Positions 14,074-24,881 of a stretch of 29,314 bases of DNA are shown in pieces (position 1 is the first letter of the stretch; every line of letters begins with the position of its first letter). The position numbers and the translations under genes are program-made. This DNA is from a virus, in the IMG/VR virus record IMGVR_UViG_3300027704_000114, positions 1-29,314 of that record. One strand, written 5' to 3'. The notes under the pieces were generated by a model. The model did not search any database and was not told the DNA's origin. It saw only the letters and a list, made by a program, of their open reading frames with translations.

Positions 14074-15084
14074 CTAAACAGAAGCACTTGTTGCTAATCC
14101 TGTAGATACATTTGTTGTGGTTGATTGAGTATTTCTACTAGCAATTTTTTCTTCTAGTGTTAATAGAATTGTTTCTGGTGTAGGTGTTCCAAGTGTACCG
14201 TTTATTAACTCTGCAAAAACCGGATCCTCAACTTCTCCTTTTATTTTAGCTAATGCTTCTTTAGTTGCTCCGTATACTGGAGGTACTATATCATTACTTA
14301 ATAAACCTCCTAAAGCAAACCCAGGCGCTTCAAATGTTCCTAATGCAGCAGCTGCTGCTTGAGCTCTTGCTGCTGATTGTGCTATCTTAGCTGGTGCTCC
14401 AGAATTAATCACTATTTGTATTGCGTTACCAAGTTTATCAAAGCCCTGTTTAATTTGTTTGTTACCTAAGTTTTTAAATGGATTTGCAAGACCACCCGAC
14501 TCACCTTCTGGTAAACCAGTTTGTAACTTTCCGGTCATAAATTCAGCACCAGGACCAATGTCTGGTAATAGAGTTCCACATCCACCTATGGGTGGTATTG
14601 CTAATAAACCTGATACACCTTTTAACATTGAACCCATATCAAATCCTCCTCCTAATGATATACCAAAATCAAGTGATGGTAAACTTATATTAGGTAAATT
14701 TATATCAGGAAGATCAATATCTAAATCAAATGATGGAAGATTAAATCCTGGTGGTTTAATATCTAATCCATCCATAAGACCCTGTAAGCCAGATAAGACA
14801 GCTCCAGTTGGATTAGATATAGCTGACATCATTAAGCTAGCCACTGAAATTAAATTAGGACTGAAGTCTAAATTACAACCATCAGATAATTCAACTTGTT
14901 CTATTACAGCTGTAGTTTTTTCTTTTACTGTACTAACATAATCAGATACAGATAGAGCTGTTGGATCAAGAGCAGATATAACAGAAGATGCATCAAGTTG
15001 TGCTGTTATTTTATCTACTAGCTCTGTTGATCTACCAACATCATCTAATTGTTTCTGTTGTGCTAATTCTAATCCTGACGCCAT
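14074..15084 (-). CDS. Unknown baseplate-operon protein with LP pentapeptide repeats
   Basis: The protein has 336 aa and no family that I recognise. The N-terminal ~100 residues look helical ('LELAQQKQLDD', 'SVSDYVSTVKEKTTAVIEQV', 'LISVASLMMSAISNPTGA'). Residues about 110-145 hold a striking low-complexity stretch with Leu-Pro every five residues (P117, P126, P131, P136: 'LPDINLPNISLPSLDF'), then a Gly-rich segment ('GISLGGGFDMGSML') and 'IPPIGGCGTLLPDIGPG'. An Ala-rich helix follows (about 230-255). It lies between gp5 and gp25; in T4 the spike-tip PAAR protein gp5.4 follows gene 5, but this protein is three times longer and shows no PAAR pattern. A hub or spike-associated role is inference from place only. 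A GAGG ribosome site precedes the ATG. Confidence 0.8.
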   Translation of the reverse strand: MASGLELAQQKQLDDVGRSTELVDKITAQLDASSVISALDPTALSVSDYVSTVKEKTTAVIEQVELSDGCNLDFSPNLISVASLMMSAISNPTGAVLSGLQGLMDGLDIKPPGFNLPSFDLDIDLPDINLPNISLPSLDFGISLGGGFDMGSMLKGVSGLLAIPPIGGCGTLLPDIGPGAEFMTGKLQTGLPEGESGGLANPFKNLGNKQIKQGFDKLGNAIQIVINSGAPAKIAQSAARAQAAAAALGTFEAPGFALGGLLSNDIVPPVYGATKEALAKIKGEVEDPVFAELINGTLGTPTPETILLTLEEKIASRNTQSTTTNVSTGLATSASV

Positions 15085-20073: not shown

Positions 20074-20720
20074 TGGCTGCATTTATATTTAAAAAATTAT
20101 TAGAACAAGGAGGACCATCAGGTAAAAATGTTGATGCTGCTGTTGATTGGTTTCAAGAACAACAATCAATTACACCTACACGACCTTTACAAATAGTAAG
20201 AGGAACAGATTCAGAACAACATACACCTCAAAGATTTAAAAAAAGAATGAGACAAGGTAGGTATGAATGGGGTAGAATGGTTATGTTTCAATATGATCCT
20301 AAAGGTAAAGCTACTCTACCTTACTATGATAAATATCCTTTGGGATTTATTATAGATGTAACCTCTGATGGCTTTCTTATGTTGAACATGCATTATTTAC
20401 CTCCTATGCTTAGAGCTAATGTCATGGATGCTTTATATCAATTTTTACCACTACAAGAAGGACAAGAGCTACAAGATAGAGATAAATTACAAATGATGCC
20501 TCAACCATATAGAATATTAAAAAGATATAGAAGACTAAAATGGTACAAGGGATGCTTGAAAAGATACCTAAATACTAACATACAATCTCGTATTGTAACC
20601 ATATACCCTAAAGAATGGAACATGGCATTGTTTATGCCTATGACTAGAACATTTAGGGGTGCTAGTGCACAACAAATATGGAGAGATACAAGAATAAAAG
20701 GAAGAGGTCTTAAAGTTTAA
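20073..20720 (+). CDS. Conserved basic protein of unknown role, possibly gp2-like DNA-end protector
   Basis: The protein has 215 aa and is rich in Arg/Lys. Distinct blocks: 'YDPKGKATLPYYDKYPLGFI' (74-93), 'GFLMLNMHYLPPMLRANVMD' (100-119), 'YRILKRYRRLKWYKGCLKRY' (146-165), 'VTIYPKEWNMALFMPMTRTF' (175-194), then 'VW/IWRDTR'-type ending 'QQIWRDTRIKGRGLKV'. I recall this pattern from many T4-like marine phages, annotated variously as hypothetical or as DNA end protector gp2. T4 genes run 3-2-4, so a gp2 analogue next to gp4 would fit, and the high basic content fits DNA contact. The identity is not proven. Both ends are coupled by TAATG overlaps with its neighbours. Confidence 0.85.
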   Translation: MAAFIFKKLLEQGGPSGKNVDAAVDWFQEQQSITPTRPLQIVRGTDSEQHTPQRFKKRMRQGRYEWGRMVMFQYDPKGKATLPYYDKYPLGFIIDVTSDGFLMLNMHYLPPMLRANVMDALYQFLPLQEGQELQDRDKLQMMPQPYRILKRYRRLKWYKGCLKRYLNTNIQSRIVTIYPKEWNMALFMPMTRTFRGASAQQIWRDTRIKGRGLKV

Positions 20721-21541
20721 TGGCAAATATATTTAATCAATCTAATCTAGGTACTGCTGTTGGTATCCTTGATCTTCTTAGGAACAGAGGAAGAGGACGT
20801 CATCCTGAACCTGAGTTTGCAGCAAAAGGCTTCCAAGGTGATAGAGACGGTGGTAAGGCAAAATTTAGTTTAAATAACTTTATAGCTAAAATTAATGATG
20901 TTAAAATTGGAGGCTTATGGCAGCCAAACAGATTTGTAGTAAGAATAGGTCCAAGTGGCAAAGTAACAAAATTTATACATGACAATGTGGAAAATATGTC
21001 CTTTCTTTGTAACTCAGCTGCACTACCTGGTATACAAATAATTACAAGTGACCATAGAAGACAAAATATGGGTACATTTGATAGACGTCCTTTTGGTGTA
21101 CAGGCTACAGATATACCTTTAACATTTATGTTAGATCAGAGAGGTACTATACAAACAATATTTAGAAATTGGACAAATGAAATAGTTAATTATTCTTATA
21201 AACAAAAAGAACATGGTGCAATCAATGGCAAACAATTGTATGAAGTTGGTTATCGTGAGGATTATTTATGTGAAATAGATATATTTTGTTTAGATCAAAA
21301 ACAAGAAAATATTATTACGTATCATCTTTATGAAGCATTCCCAATGCAAGTTGGTGATGTCACTGCAGCATGGTCTGAAACAGATAGCTTTGGTGTGCTG
21401 CCAGTTCAATTTACATTTAGAACATATGATATAAAAGTAGAGGAAGTAGGTTCCAATGATACTAGTGCTACATTAGGTACACAAGCACCTTTGAGAGAAA
21501 CAACAGGCATAGGAGGAAGGTCTATCAGAAGACCTACATAA
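20720..21541 (+). CDS. Tail-tube-fold protein, probable gp54 tube initiator
   Basis: The protein has 273 aa. After a basic, Gly-rich N-terminus (to ~50) it shows a tail-tube-like fold: 'NRFVVRIGPSGKVTKFIHDN' (70-89), 'MSFLCNSAALPG' (93-104; T4 tube gp19 has 'FTFQCKATALPAG'), 'FGVQATDIPLTFMLDQRGTI', 'IFRNWTNEIVNY' and a late 'CLDQKQENIITYHLYEAFPM', 'LPVQFTFRTYDI'. Its length and the presence of a separate gp48 make the baseplate tube initiator gp54 (T4: 320 aa) the best guess; a gp19 paralogue is possible but 273 aa is too long for a plain tube subunit (163 aa in T4). Coupled to the upstream gene; 53 bp separate it from gp26. Confidence 0.75.
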   Translation: MANIFNQSNLGTAVGILDLLRNRGRGRHPEPEFAAKGFQGDRDGGKAKFSLNNFIAKINDVKIGGLWQPNRFVVRIGPSGKVTKFIHDNVENMSFLCNSAALPGIQIITSDHRRQNMGTFDRRPFGVQATDIPLTFMLDQRGTIQTIFRNWTNEIVNYSYKQKEHGAINGKQLYEVGYREDYLCEIDIFCLDQKQENIITYHLYEAFPMQVGDVTAAWSETDSFGVLPVQFTFRTYDIKVEEVGSNDTSATLGTQAPLRETTGIGGRSIRRPT

Positions 21542-21594: not shown

Positions 21595-22296
21595 ATGGCA
21601 TTACCAATATTGAAACATCCAACATTTGAGTTGACGGTACCTTCTACAAAAACATTGTTGAAGTATCGACCTTTTTTAGTTAAAGAAGAAAAGATTTTAC
21701 TGTTGGCCCAAGGATCAAATAAGTCAAAAGATTTGATTTCAGCAGTTAAACAAATTGTTAAGAATTGTATTATTGAAGGAGAAATTGATGTAGACCACAC
21801 TCCTACATTTGATTTAGAATATATATTTTTAAAATTGAGAGCTAATTCTGTTAGTGATGTAGCTAAGTTTAATATGACAGATGAAGATGGAGTAGAGAGT
21901 AAGATAGAGCTTGATTTAAATATAGTTGAAGTACAACATACTGAAAATCATACTAATATTATTAATATAGGGGATGATATTTCTCTTGAAATGAAGTACC
22001 CTACATATACAACATTAAGTAGTATTCAAAGTGAGGATGCTGTTGAGGTTACATTTAGCATGATTGAAAGGTGTATTGATAAAGTAATACAAGGTGAAGA
22101 AGTTATGGAGTTAAAAGATTTTAGTAAAGCTGATGTAAAGGAATTTTTAGATTCTTTAACATCACAAAACTTTAAAGATATCCAAAAATTCTTTGATGAA
22201 ATGCCTAAGTTAGAACATACTGTTGAATATAAGGTTGATGGAAAAACAAAATCAAAAACATTCAAAGGCCTTGCTGATTTTTTTCAATCTGCCTGA
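21595..22296 (+). CDS. gp26: gp26 baseplate hub assembly protein / tail assembly chaperone (zero frame)
   Basis: The protein has 233 aa (T4 gp26: 208). 'MALPILKHPTFELTVPSTKT', 'LLKYRPFLVKEEKILLLAQG' and 'TFDLEYIFLKLRANSVSDVA' are the hallmark of the T4 baseplate family (gp26, PF12322 as I recall). A C-terminal domain ('IDVDHTP...', 'VEYKVDGKTKSKTFKGLADF') follows. In T4 gp26 is required for hub assembly; because it sits just before the tape measure gene and can be extended in the -1 frame (see 22278-22284), it looks like the short form of a tail-assembly chaperone pair. GGAG lies 7 nt before the ATG. A 3-codon ATG GAG ATA TAA at 21582 just precedes it and is probably accidental. Confidence 0.92.
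   Translation: MALPILKHPTFELTVPSTKTLLKYRPFLVKEEKILLLAQGSNKSKDLISAVKQIVKNCIIEGEIDVDHTPTFDLEYIFLKLRANSVSDVAKFNMTDEDGVESKIELDLNIVEVQHTENHTNIINIGDDISLEMKYPTYTTLSSIQSEDAVEVTFSMIERCIDKVIQGEEVMELKDFSKADVKEFLDSLTSQNFKDIQKFFDEMPKLEHTVEYKVDGKTKSKTFKGLADFFQSA
22278..22284 (+). promoter_or_regulatory. Probable programmed -1 ribosomal frameshift site (T TTT TTT)
   Basis: Seven T residues form a perfect X_XXY_YYZ heptamer in the gp26 reading frame (GAT TTT TTT CAA), three codons before the zero-frame TGA at 22294-22296. Slipping back one base leads straight into a 66-codon open frame that is gp51-like. A weak possible 4-bp stem (AGCC 22296-22299 with GGCT 22310-22313) lies 11 nt downstream; no strong stimulatory structure is evident by eye. 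Confidence 0.75.
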
Positions 22297-22484
22297 GCCA
22301 CTTAAATGCGGCTGCTTATTATAGACAAATATTTAGTATGGTTAATCATTATCAGTATGGAATACAAGATATAGAACAACTATACCCTTTTGAAAGAGAT
22401 ATTTATTATAGTTTATTAGAAGATCATGTCAAAGAAGTAAATGAGAGAAAGGAGACAAACAATGCCGGAGCAGGACTCAGTTAA
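22284..22484 (+). CDS. gp51: gp51-like extension made by -1 frameshift from gp26
   Basis: In the -1 frame relative to gp26, TCA at 22284 opens 66 codons ending at TAA 22482-22484. The predicted fusion has 296 aa (230 + 66). The extension reads SICLSHLNAAAYYRQIFSMV then NHYQYGIQDIEQLYPFERDI then YYSLLEDHVKEVNERKE; the pattern 'SH..A..YY..IF.M..H..Y....IE.LYPFERD.Y..LL' resembles gp51-type hub-assembly sequences and the T part of G/GT chaperones, as I recall them. There is no good ribosome site for an independent start: the first ATG is at 22338, inside the conserved part and preceded by no SD. The likely start therefore lies in gp26. It overlaps the next gene by 23 nt. Confidence 0.75.
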   Translation, partial: SICLSHLNAAAYYRQIFSMVNHYQYGIQDIEQLYPFERDIYYSLLEDHVKEVNERKETNNAGAGLS

Positions 22485-22725
22485 AAGTAACAAGTATCAA
22501 AAATGGGTTGATATGGCTTATATGTTTGATCAATGGAGAATATTTCCTAGAGTCTTTATCTCAATGTACATCTACTTATTATATAAAGTAGTAGTATGGT
22601 ATATGGCATTAGGTGCTCCATCAATGGAACAAAGTGGTTTAGTTTCTGTTGTAGTTGGTGCTGGTGCAGCATGGTTTGGTTTATATACAGGTTCTAGTAA
22701 ATCTGGTTCAGGCAAAGAGAAATAG
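22462..22725 (+). CDS. Small two-helix membrane protein, candidate holin
   Basis: I place the start at the ATG at 22462 (87 aa, MPEQDSVKSNKYQKW...) because AAGGAG lies 7 nt before it; the in-frame ATG at 22441 would add seven residues but has no ribosome site. The N-terminus is amphipathic ('KYQKWVDMAYMFDQWRIFPR', 11-30). TM1 covers about 31-50 ('VFISMYIYLLYKVVVWYMAL'), TM2 about 57-76 ('QSGLVSVVVGAGAAWFGLYT'), and the tail is hydrophilic ('GSSKSGSGKEK'). Size, an amphipathic head, a tight turn and a charged C-terminus fit class II-like or GTA-type holins, but a role as a tail-assembly membrane protein (T4 gp28 is membrane-associated and lies near 51) is equally open. It lies between the chaperone pair and the tape measure gene. 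Confidence 0.8.
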   Translation: MPEQDSVKSNKYQKWVDMAYMFDQWRIFPRVFISMYIYLLYKVVVWYMALGAPSMEQSGLVSVVVGAGAAWFGLYTGSSKSGSGKEK

Positions 22726-22736
22726 GGACTAAAAAA

Positions 22737-24881
22737 ATGGCTACCACATCCGGAACATCTGCTATTGATAGTTTACATAACACAATAGATAAATTTAGAT
22801 CTGAAAGCACTAATAACTTTAGTGAAATGATTAGTGGCCAACATAAGTTAATTGATGTTAGTACAGCTCAATTTGATCTTCTTAAAGATTCACAAGATAA
22901 AGCATACGAAGAATCAAGAAATTCATTAAAGAAACCAGCTATTGCAGCACTTGCTACAAGTGGTGCTGCAGGTGTTGCAGGTAAGGCTAAACCAAAAGGT
23001 GGTAAAGAAAAAAAAGGGGGTATATTTAGCAAAGCACTTGGTAGTCTTGGGGCACTGGCAGGTATAGGGATTTCATTAGCAGGGCTTGGTGCTTTATTTG
23101 CAGGTGGTGGTTATCTTATAAAACAACTTTCTGAATTTGATGGTGCGGCTGTCAAAAAAAATATATTATTATTATTGTCTATTCCATCATCTATTCCAGG
23201 TGATAGTACTCCTGAAAAAGCTCTACTTGTACTTGGTACTGCTGGAACTTTAGGAGTAATTGCTGCAGGGTTAATAGCTTTTTCAGCTGGTGCTTTTTTT
23301 GTAGGTGGGGTTCATAAATTATTTGGTGGTGAATGGGTTCAAGATACTGTAGATGGTGTAACTGCATTAGTAGGTATGTTAGATATTACAACTGGTAAAG
23401 ATTTACTTATACAATTGGCTAATATATTTGCTAGTACTGGTGCACTTATTGGAATTGGAATAGGTCTTGGAACATTTGCTTTAGGCAAAGGGCTTATAAG
23501 TGCCGTCAATTTCTTTACTAAGAATAAAGGATTTGCCGAAAAAACAAAAGAAGAGGTGGAAGTCTTATTGGGTATTGGATCTGGTAGTGAGTTTGGTGAA
23601 GGTTTTTGGGCTAAATTAGGAAGAATATTTGGGGCTACTGGTTCATTAGGTTTGATTGGTGCAGGTCTTGCAGTATATTCTGTTGGAAAGGCAGCTGCTA
23701 AAGGTGCTGAATGGTTTGCCGGGAATACAGGATTTGCCCAAAAAGTAAAAGATGAGGTACAAGTATTACTAGGAATTGGTAAAGGGCAAGCTGCGGATTT
23801 TGGATGGTTCCCCGTCAAGATGGCTTTTCTATTAGGTGGTCTTCTCTTATTCTCAATTGGTAAAGGTGTAGGGAGTTTAGTAGATGTTGCATCTACTACT
23901 ATAACAAAAGGTATTAATTGGTGGACAGATGATAACCAAAAAGATTTTGCGACAAAGATTAAATCCCAAGTTAAAACATTATTATCTATACCAAATTTAC
24001 CAGGAGCGGCAGGTGCAAATCTTGTAGACTTTGGTATAACTATGGGTGCAATATTAGGTGGTCTTCTTGCATTCTCGTTAGGTTTAGGTGTGGTAGGTAT
24101 AACTTCTGCTGCAGCTGAAGGATTATCTTTATGGACAACAGATACTGGTATGGCTGACAATGTATATAATAATGTTGAAAAATTACTGTCAGTTACAGAT
24201 TTGGCTGATGGGAAAGACATTGGGAGCTTCCTAGGAATTATGGCATCACTTTCTGTAGGGTTGCTTGCATTTGGTGGTACTACTGCTTTTGCTTCATTAG
24301 GATTAGCAATAGGTAGAATATTTACTTTTTTCACTGGAGAAAAATCTCCTTTTACACAAATAGAAATAATTGCTGAAAATGCTGAAAAATTAGATAAAGG
24401 TGCTAAAGCTATTGATTCAATCCAAGATGCTTTAAGAAAATTTAGTGATTTGAATTTCAAAGGTAGCAAAATTGGTATGGAAGACTTTGCAGAAGATTTA
24501 ATAAAATCTGTTCCTATTATAGAAAAAGCAGTAGGAGGTGGTAAAATAGGAGCATATTGGTCAACATTGCTTCCTGGTACACAAAATTATGAATTTAAAG
24601 GTCTTGCTAATCCTGATATTGGATTTGAACAAGCGGCTATAAATATTACAATACTTAAACGAGCACTTGCAGGTATTGGAGATGTGAACATGGGAGCTGT
24701 CGAAAAAGATAGTGGGGGAGGAGGCTCTGTAATTAATAATTATAATAGTGTCTCTAACAATGGTTATAGTCAAGGCAATGCTGGTGGTAATGACAGTGGT
24801 GTTAGACTAACCGTAACTCCAACAATTGCAAGCCAAACAAAAGGTGATAGGTATGATCTATGGGGCGTAAATATGGATTAA
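22737..24881 (+). CDS. Tail tape measure protein built from ~68-aa repeats
   Basis: The protein has 714 aa. The N-terminal 65 residues are helical/coiled ('DSLHNTIDKFRSESTNNFSE', 'STAQFDLLKDSQDKAYEESR'), then a Lys/Gly linker (80-95), then a long hydrophobic, Gly/Ala-rich region (95-540). A motif of the form '[DEN].V..LL.I' recurs near residues 141, 206, 272, 339, 410, 478 and 547, i.e. every 65-71 residues, each followed by 'GGLLAFS.G'-type helices and 'W.T.DxGFA'-type linkers. This repeat-plus-membrane-helix design is typical of tape measure proteins, which set tail length and enter the host envelope. It is the functional counterpart of T4 gp29 (590 aa). The C-terminus (655-685) is Gly/Asn-rich. 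It directly follows the chaperone-like 26/51 pair. Confidence 0.85.
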   Translation: MATTSGTSAIDSLHNTIDKFRSESTNNFSEMISGQHKLIDVSTAQFDLLKDSQDKAYEESRNSLKKPAIAALATSGAAGVAGKAKPKGGKEKKGGIFSKALGSLGALAGIGISLAGLGALFAGGGYLIKQLSEFDGAAVKKNILLLLSIPSSIPGDSTPEKALLVLGTAGTLGVIAAGLIAFSAGAFFVGGVHKLFGGEWVQDTVDGVTALVGMLDITTGKDLLIQLANIFASTGALIGIGIGLGTFALGKGLISAVNFFTKNKGFAEKTKEEVEVLLGIGSGSEFGEGFWAKLGRIFGATGSLGLIGAGLAVYSVGKAAAKGAEWFAGNTGFAQKVKDEVQVLLGIGKGQAADFGWFPVKMAFLLGGLLLFSIGKGVGSLVDVASTTITKGINWWTDDNQKDFATKIKSQVKTLLSIPNLPGAAGANLVDFGITMGAILGGLLAFSLGLGVVGITSAAAEGLSLWTTDTGMADNVYNNVEKLLSVTDLADGKDIGSFLGIMASLSVGLLAFGGTTAFASLGLAIGRIFTFFTGEKSPFTQIEIIAENAEKLDKGAKAIDSIQDALRKFSDLNFKGSKIGMEDFAEDLIKSVPIIEKAVGGGKIGAYWSTLLPGTQNYEFKGLANPDIGFEQAAINITILKRALAGIGDVNMGAVEKDSGGGGSVINNYNSVSNNGYSQGNAGGNDSGVRLTVTPTIASQTKGDRYDLWGVNMD

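Follow-up and report, generated by a model that had tools for sequence, protein, structure and literature searches.

The locus considered here raises the question of whether a marine T4-like phage makes its short and long tail-assembly chaperones from a single gene by programmed -1 ribosomal frameshifting, as lambda does with G and GT; a review describes the G-T frameshift as widely conserved in long-tailed phages "except T4" (PMC5009743). The initial annotation had proposed that genes 26 and 51 are the T4-type counterpart of G/GT and that they are joined, in this lineage, by a -1 shift ahead of the tape measure gene. The window, that is, the whole stretch of DNA analyzed, comprises 29,314 nt (IMG/VR record IMGVR_UViG_3300027704_000114, positions 1 to 29,314), and the following features, all on the plus strand, bear on this proposal.

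20720 to 21541, +, tail tube (gp54-type) protein, directly 5' of gp26 (PF23849, 3.5e-8; phrog_45, 6.8e-28)
21595 to 22296, +, gp26, short tail-assembly chaperone of 233 aa, zero frame (PF12322, phrog_150, AlphaFold model)
22264 to 22268, +, AAAGG, a weak Shine-Dalgarno-like stretch ending 9 nt ahead of the slip site (family-level signal)
22278 to 22284, +, slippery heptamer T_TTT_TTT in zero-frame phase (sequence; kept in relatives)
22284 to 22484, +, -1 frame extension, predicted gp51-like C-terminal domain of the long chaperone (phrog_634)
22285 to 22353, +, position of the downstream RNA structure of relatives, degenerate in the window (family folds against synonymous shuffles)
22294 to 22296, +, zero-frame stop TGA, three sense codons past the slip site (sequence)
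22462 to 22725, +, small ORF of 87 aa with its own Shine-Dalgarno sequence, starting inside the -1 frame (phrog_10198, 1.3e-23)
22737 to 24881, +, probable tape measure protein of 714 aa (position and composition)

The 3' end of gp26 reads GAT TTT TTT CAA TCT GCC TGA, with a run of exactly seven Ts in the X_XXY_YYZ phase relative to gp26; this is the phase that had been claimed for it, and every coordinate in the initial annotation proved to be right. Past the slip site, the -1 frame continues for 66 codons, as claimed, before it ends at TAA (22482 to 22484), and the virtual fusion of gp26 with this frame is 296 aa long. The window is AT rich, and its genes contain nine in-phase TTTTTT sequences among 9,234 codons, which makes the heptamer by itself weak evidence. 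None of the 9,234 other gene codons of the window is followed by 66 or more open codons in the -1 frame, the mean being 6.

The chaperone locus lies between the tail tube gene and the probable tape measure gene, within a T4-like structural module in which genes of the gp48, gp53, gp5, gp25, gp6, gp32, gp33, and gp59 types surround gp26. Profile searches returned no family match for the 714-aa protein itself, and BLAST detected no direct homology between it and T4 gp29; the counterparts of this protein in Cr30, Melnitz-3, and phiM19 do have matches among the tape measure families, which upholds the placement of the 26/51 locus ahead of the tape measure gene, with a small ORF intervening. That ORF, between the chaperone and tape measure genes, belongs to phrog_10198, a family of unknown function. 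Elsewhere in the window, a 336-aa ORF (14074 to 15084) within the baseplate gene cluster has no family match.

The zero-frame product matches PF12322, the T4 gp26 family, at 1.6e-56 (191.8 bits, against a curated cutoff of 24.5) and phrog_150 at 3.8e-61. The description of the -1 peptide as gp51-like was borne out by a family search, which matched it to phrog_634 ("baseplate hub assembly catalyst," gp51) at 1.6e-17. The virtual fusion gives a full-length match to phrog_150, with 237.6 bits compared with 208 for gp26 alone, and in profile comparisons with T4 gp51 the E value fell from 8.6e-8 for the -1 part to 4.7e-22 for the whole fusion, the alignment running from residue 21 to residue 285 unbroken across the slip site. 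The AlphaFold model of gp26 has a pLDDT of 93.8. Foldseek found no match to this model in the PDB that was significant by E value, and our statement that it adopts a chaperone fold of the HK97 gp13 type is based instead on a second-look aligner, VIA-align, for which the best solved neighbors were 3fgx (Z 7.9), 2ob9 from HK97 (Z 7.7), and 3klu (Z 7.2). These three structures are listed as tail-assembly chaperones (PMC9603447); the matches to them span residues 1 to 96, with Z below 8, and the next row scored 2.9.

Conservation was assessed in 80 IMG/VR relatives, chosen by similarity to the window and hence not independent, and 79 of them have either T_TTT_TTC or T_TTT_TTT at this codon of gp26, so that the heptamer, in the form T_TTT_TTY, and its phase are conserved; the single exception, L072, has G_TTT_TTC. 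The zero-frame stop lies 0 to 8 codons past the slip site, and a 51-like sequence beside gp26, where a search detected one, is in the -1 frame in every case (73/73). Codon counts were made on the 79 sequences that retain the slip site in a dereplicated set of 81. The codon ahead of the FF pair is NNT in all 79, against an expectation of 55, though the residue that it encodes is D, S, N, or A; the first Phe codon at the slip site is always TTT, compared with 70% elsewhere, and of the 75 FF pairs at other places in these genes, only 4 are encoded by TTTTTT. The fixation of NNT-TTT despite a varying residue, together with the rarity of TTTTTT at other FF pairs, argues for selection on the nucleotides and not on the protein alone. 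Log-probabilities for this fixation are about -13 and -12, rough values that are upper bounds on its strength because the relatives share kinship.

The same arrangement is present in isolated phages of cyanobacteria, Methylophilales, Sinorhizobium, Caulobacter, Vibrio, Aeromonas, Stenotrophomonas, Pseudomonas, and Cronobacter. In Aeromonas phage Aeh1 (L089, 3163 to 3372), an unannotated -1 frame after gp26 encodes a gp51-like domain. Synechococcus phage S-SCSM1 (L099, 1960 to 2180) keeps the heptamer and has its 51-like frame in +1, with an apparent 11-nt insertion just past the gp26 stop that may be a sequencing error or a true variant. Scans with Vibrio phage K452 as the query found no more distant relatives.

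Set against the three-part signal of the dnaX type, the window has the heptamer, and the other two parts, a Shine-Dalgarno-like stretch and a downstream structure, are clear across the family and weak in the window. In the relatives, anti-Shine-Dalgarno pairing peaks 9 to 15 nt before the slip site (mean of -4.5 versus -3.3 kcal/mol; z of -10 against synonymous shuffles); the value for AAAGG in the window is only -3.2 kcal/mol, which makes its role there doubtful. RNA structure in the relatives likewise peaks just past the slip site, with a mean z of -2.24 (standard error, 0.24) compared with -0.1 to -0.6 for controls and -0.2 for the window. RNAalifold gave no consensus downstream structure in either heptamer class, and single-sequence folds are stable. 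A subclade of 12 sequences has a common 9-bp stem starting 7 nt past the heptamer, in which 98% of cells are paired and two pairs show compensatory changes; the window keeps 6 of 10 pairs, and the stem is not retained. As the window's Shine-Dalgarno-like stretch and RNA structure are weak, the T7 run may be sufficient for this phage.

We conclude that, very probably, programmed -1 frameshifting yields the short and long tail-assembly chaperones of this marine T4-like phage. The proposal that 26/51 represent a T4-type G/GT joined in this way is supported by homology, by the 79 conserved sites among 80 relatives, by the isolates, by the gp51 alignment, and by the fold. From the site, its phase, its conservation, the homology, and the fold, which are established, we infer the occurrence and rate of slippage and the role of each form. 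Most ribosomes would end at the TGA (22294 to 22296) and release gp26 of 233 aa, whereas a minority would shift back by one base at T_TTT_TTT and continue to the TAA at 22484, giving a long form of 296 aa that would bear the gp51-like domain. If the two forms act as G and GT do in lambda, the tape measure protein, whose gene lies just downstream, may be coated by numerous short chaperones and a small number of long ones, with the 51-like domain perhaps recruiting tail tube subunits.

The 51-like piece might instead be a separate small protein, made from an internal start or by reinitiation after the gp26 stop, which we regard as unlikely. Most records in public databases are annotated in this way; none of the isolate records that we examined annotates a joined gp26/51 gene, and gp51 is entered as a gene of its own. 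Moreover, TAATG or TGATG occurs at the gp26 stop in 8 of 79 relatives, and in those 8 the overlap could allow reinitiation to yield a separate 51 piece. Only 13 of 79 relatives, however, have a -1 frame start codon (ATG, GTG, or TTG) at -9 to +14 nt relative to the slip site, and conserved -1 residues, typically ALSH..LE.YY..NF, begin directly at the slip site, ahead of any start codon; the first -1 frame ATG in most relatives comes after these residues, 18 to 19 codons past the slip site. No plausible internal start was found in the window: no -1 frame start codon precedes the ATG at 22338, 18 codons in, and that ATG has no Shine-Dalgarno sequence before it, in agreement with the initial annotation. 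A separate protein would also give the heptamer no reason for fixation at the codon level. In a few lineages, reinitiation may add to slippage or replace it; Vibrio phages K452 and SD25 (L097, 3190 to 3405, and L098, 3150 to 3354) have lost the slippery run and have TAATG, and their second piece may be produced by reinitiation and not by frameshifting.

Bacterial polymerases are known to slip on such homopolymer runs, and T7 is a homopolymer, on which RNA polymerase could slip and vary the number of Us so that a mixture of short and fused proteins results. We consider this even less probable than a separate protein; 55 of the 79 dereplicated relatives have just six Ts followed by C, the codon phase is fixed, and the RNA structure and Shine-Dalgarno-like signals of the family suit ribosomes and not polymerase. 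Least probable of all, to the point of being effectively refuted, is that the two frames reflect a pseudogene or a sequencing or assembly error within what is a single in-frame gene. Although a run of seven Ts invites errors, a second metagenome contig of the phage, L120, which aligns with the window at 99.87% identity and without gaps over 8,496 bp, also has seven Ts, not six or eight, and the phase is shared by 79 of 80 relatives, mostly with T6C. Programmed frameshifting remains our preferred reading.

The relation to T4 itself differs in part from what had been supposed. That 26 and 51 are two separate genes in T4 holds; that they are the two halves of a fusion does not, as the alignment of the full fusion identifies T4 gp51 as a long paralogue, with a gp26-like body and a 51 tail, and T4 gp26 as the counterpart of the short form; PMC10885494 describes T4 gp51 likewise. 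The T4 gp26 and gp51 profiles are themselves homologous (E, 1.9e-17), which, together with the alignment of the fusion to gp51 throughout, indicates that T4 encodes its short and long forms in separate genes. These two genes are oriented in opposite directions and the slip site is destroyed, in contrast to the single locus with a slip site in the window phage. Gp26 of the T4 type keeps the FF residues, encoded by GAGTTCTTT or GAATTCTTT (GAGTTCTTT in T4 itself), as would be expected if slippage were no longer needed. Genes 51 and 26 of T4 (L100, 3480 to 4229 and 2803 to 3429) are adjacent, oppositely oriented paralogues, an arrangement consistent with an ancestral frameshift locus having undergone inverted duplication. 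We tentatively raise the possibility that the T4 superfamily ancestrally used the three-part -1 signal, which would still be near universal in marine and several nonmarine lineages, that T4 and its close relatives are a derived two-gene exception, and that the widespread "short gp51" annotations are wrong.

Phage chaperone frameshifting is already described, and so are T4-like poly-T sites, according to a paper that cites the work in question. Lambda G/GT (Xu, Hendrix & Duda 2004) is unrelated in sequence to the window locus, which differs in its heptamer, T_TTT_TTY, and in its gene family, that of T4 gp26/gp51 (PF12322). Vladimirov, Gautam & Davidson (2022) are cited as having identified T4-like phage chaperones, as the source for some T4-like phages having a short and a long gene in place of frameshifting (PMC10885494), and as having recognized poly-T slip sites in the chaperone genes of T4-like phages (PMC12846349); on the latter account, the supposition in the initial annotation that frameshifting might be undescribed for T4-like phages is outdated. 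A -1 frameshift at a T-rich site is likewise predicted for the myophage chaperone gene of Vandenendeviridae (PMC12846349), a phage family different from that of the window's T4-like phage and with a GTTTTT site. Sullivan et al. (2010; PMC3037559) called gp51 of cyanophages and Vibrio phages a short separate gene that lacks the first ~200 residues and reported it to be absent from Aeh1. In S-SM1, P-SSM4, KVP40, and other phages, the locus, the -1 arrangement, and the heptamer are as in the window, and the -1 frame restores the "truncated gp51," in Aeh1 too. Possible novelties are the breadth of the phenomenon, the evidence at the codon level, the accessory signals, and the finding in Aeh1.

In summary, frameshifting at this locus would bring T4-like phages under the conserved rule for tail-assembly chaperones, contrary to the review cited at the outset, and would account for the apparent truncation of gp51 in cyanophages and its apparent absence from Aeh1. 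The locus occurs in several hundred public phage records, and our data suggest that in many of them the separate gp51 genes are misannotated. Phages of the T4 type, which have identical FF residues and no slip site, would serve as a natural control.
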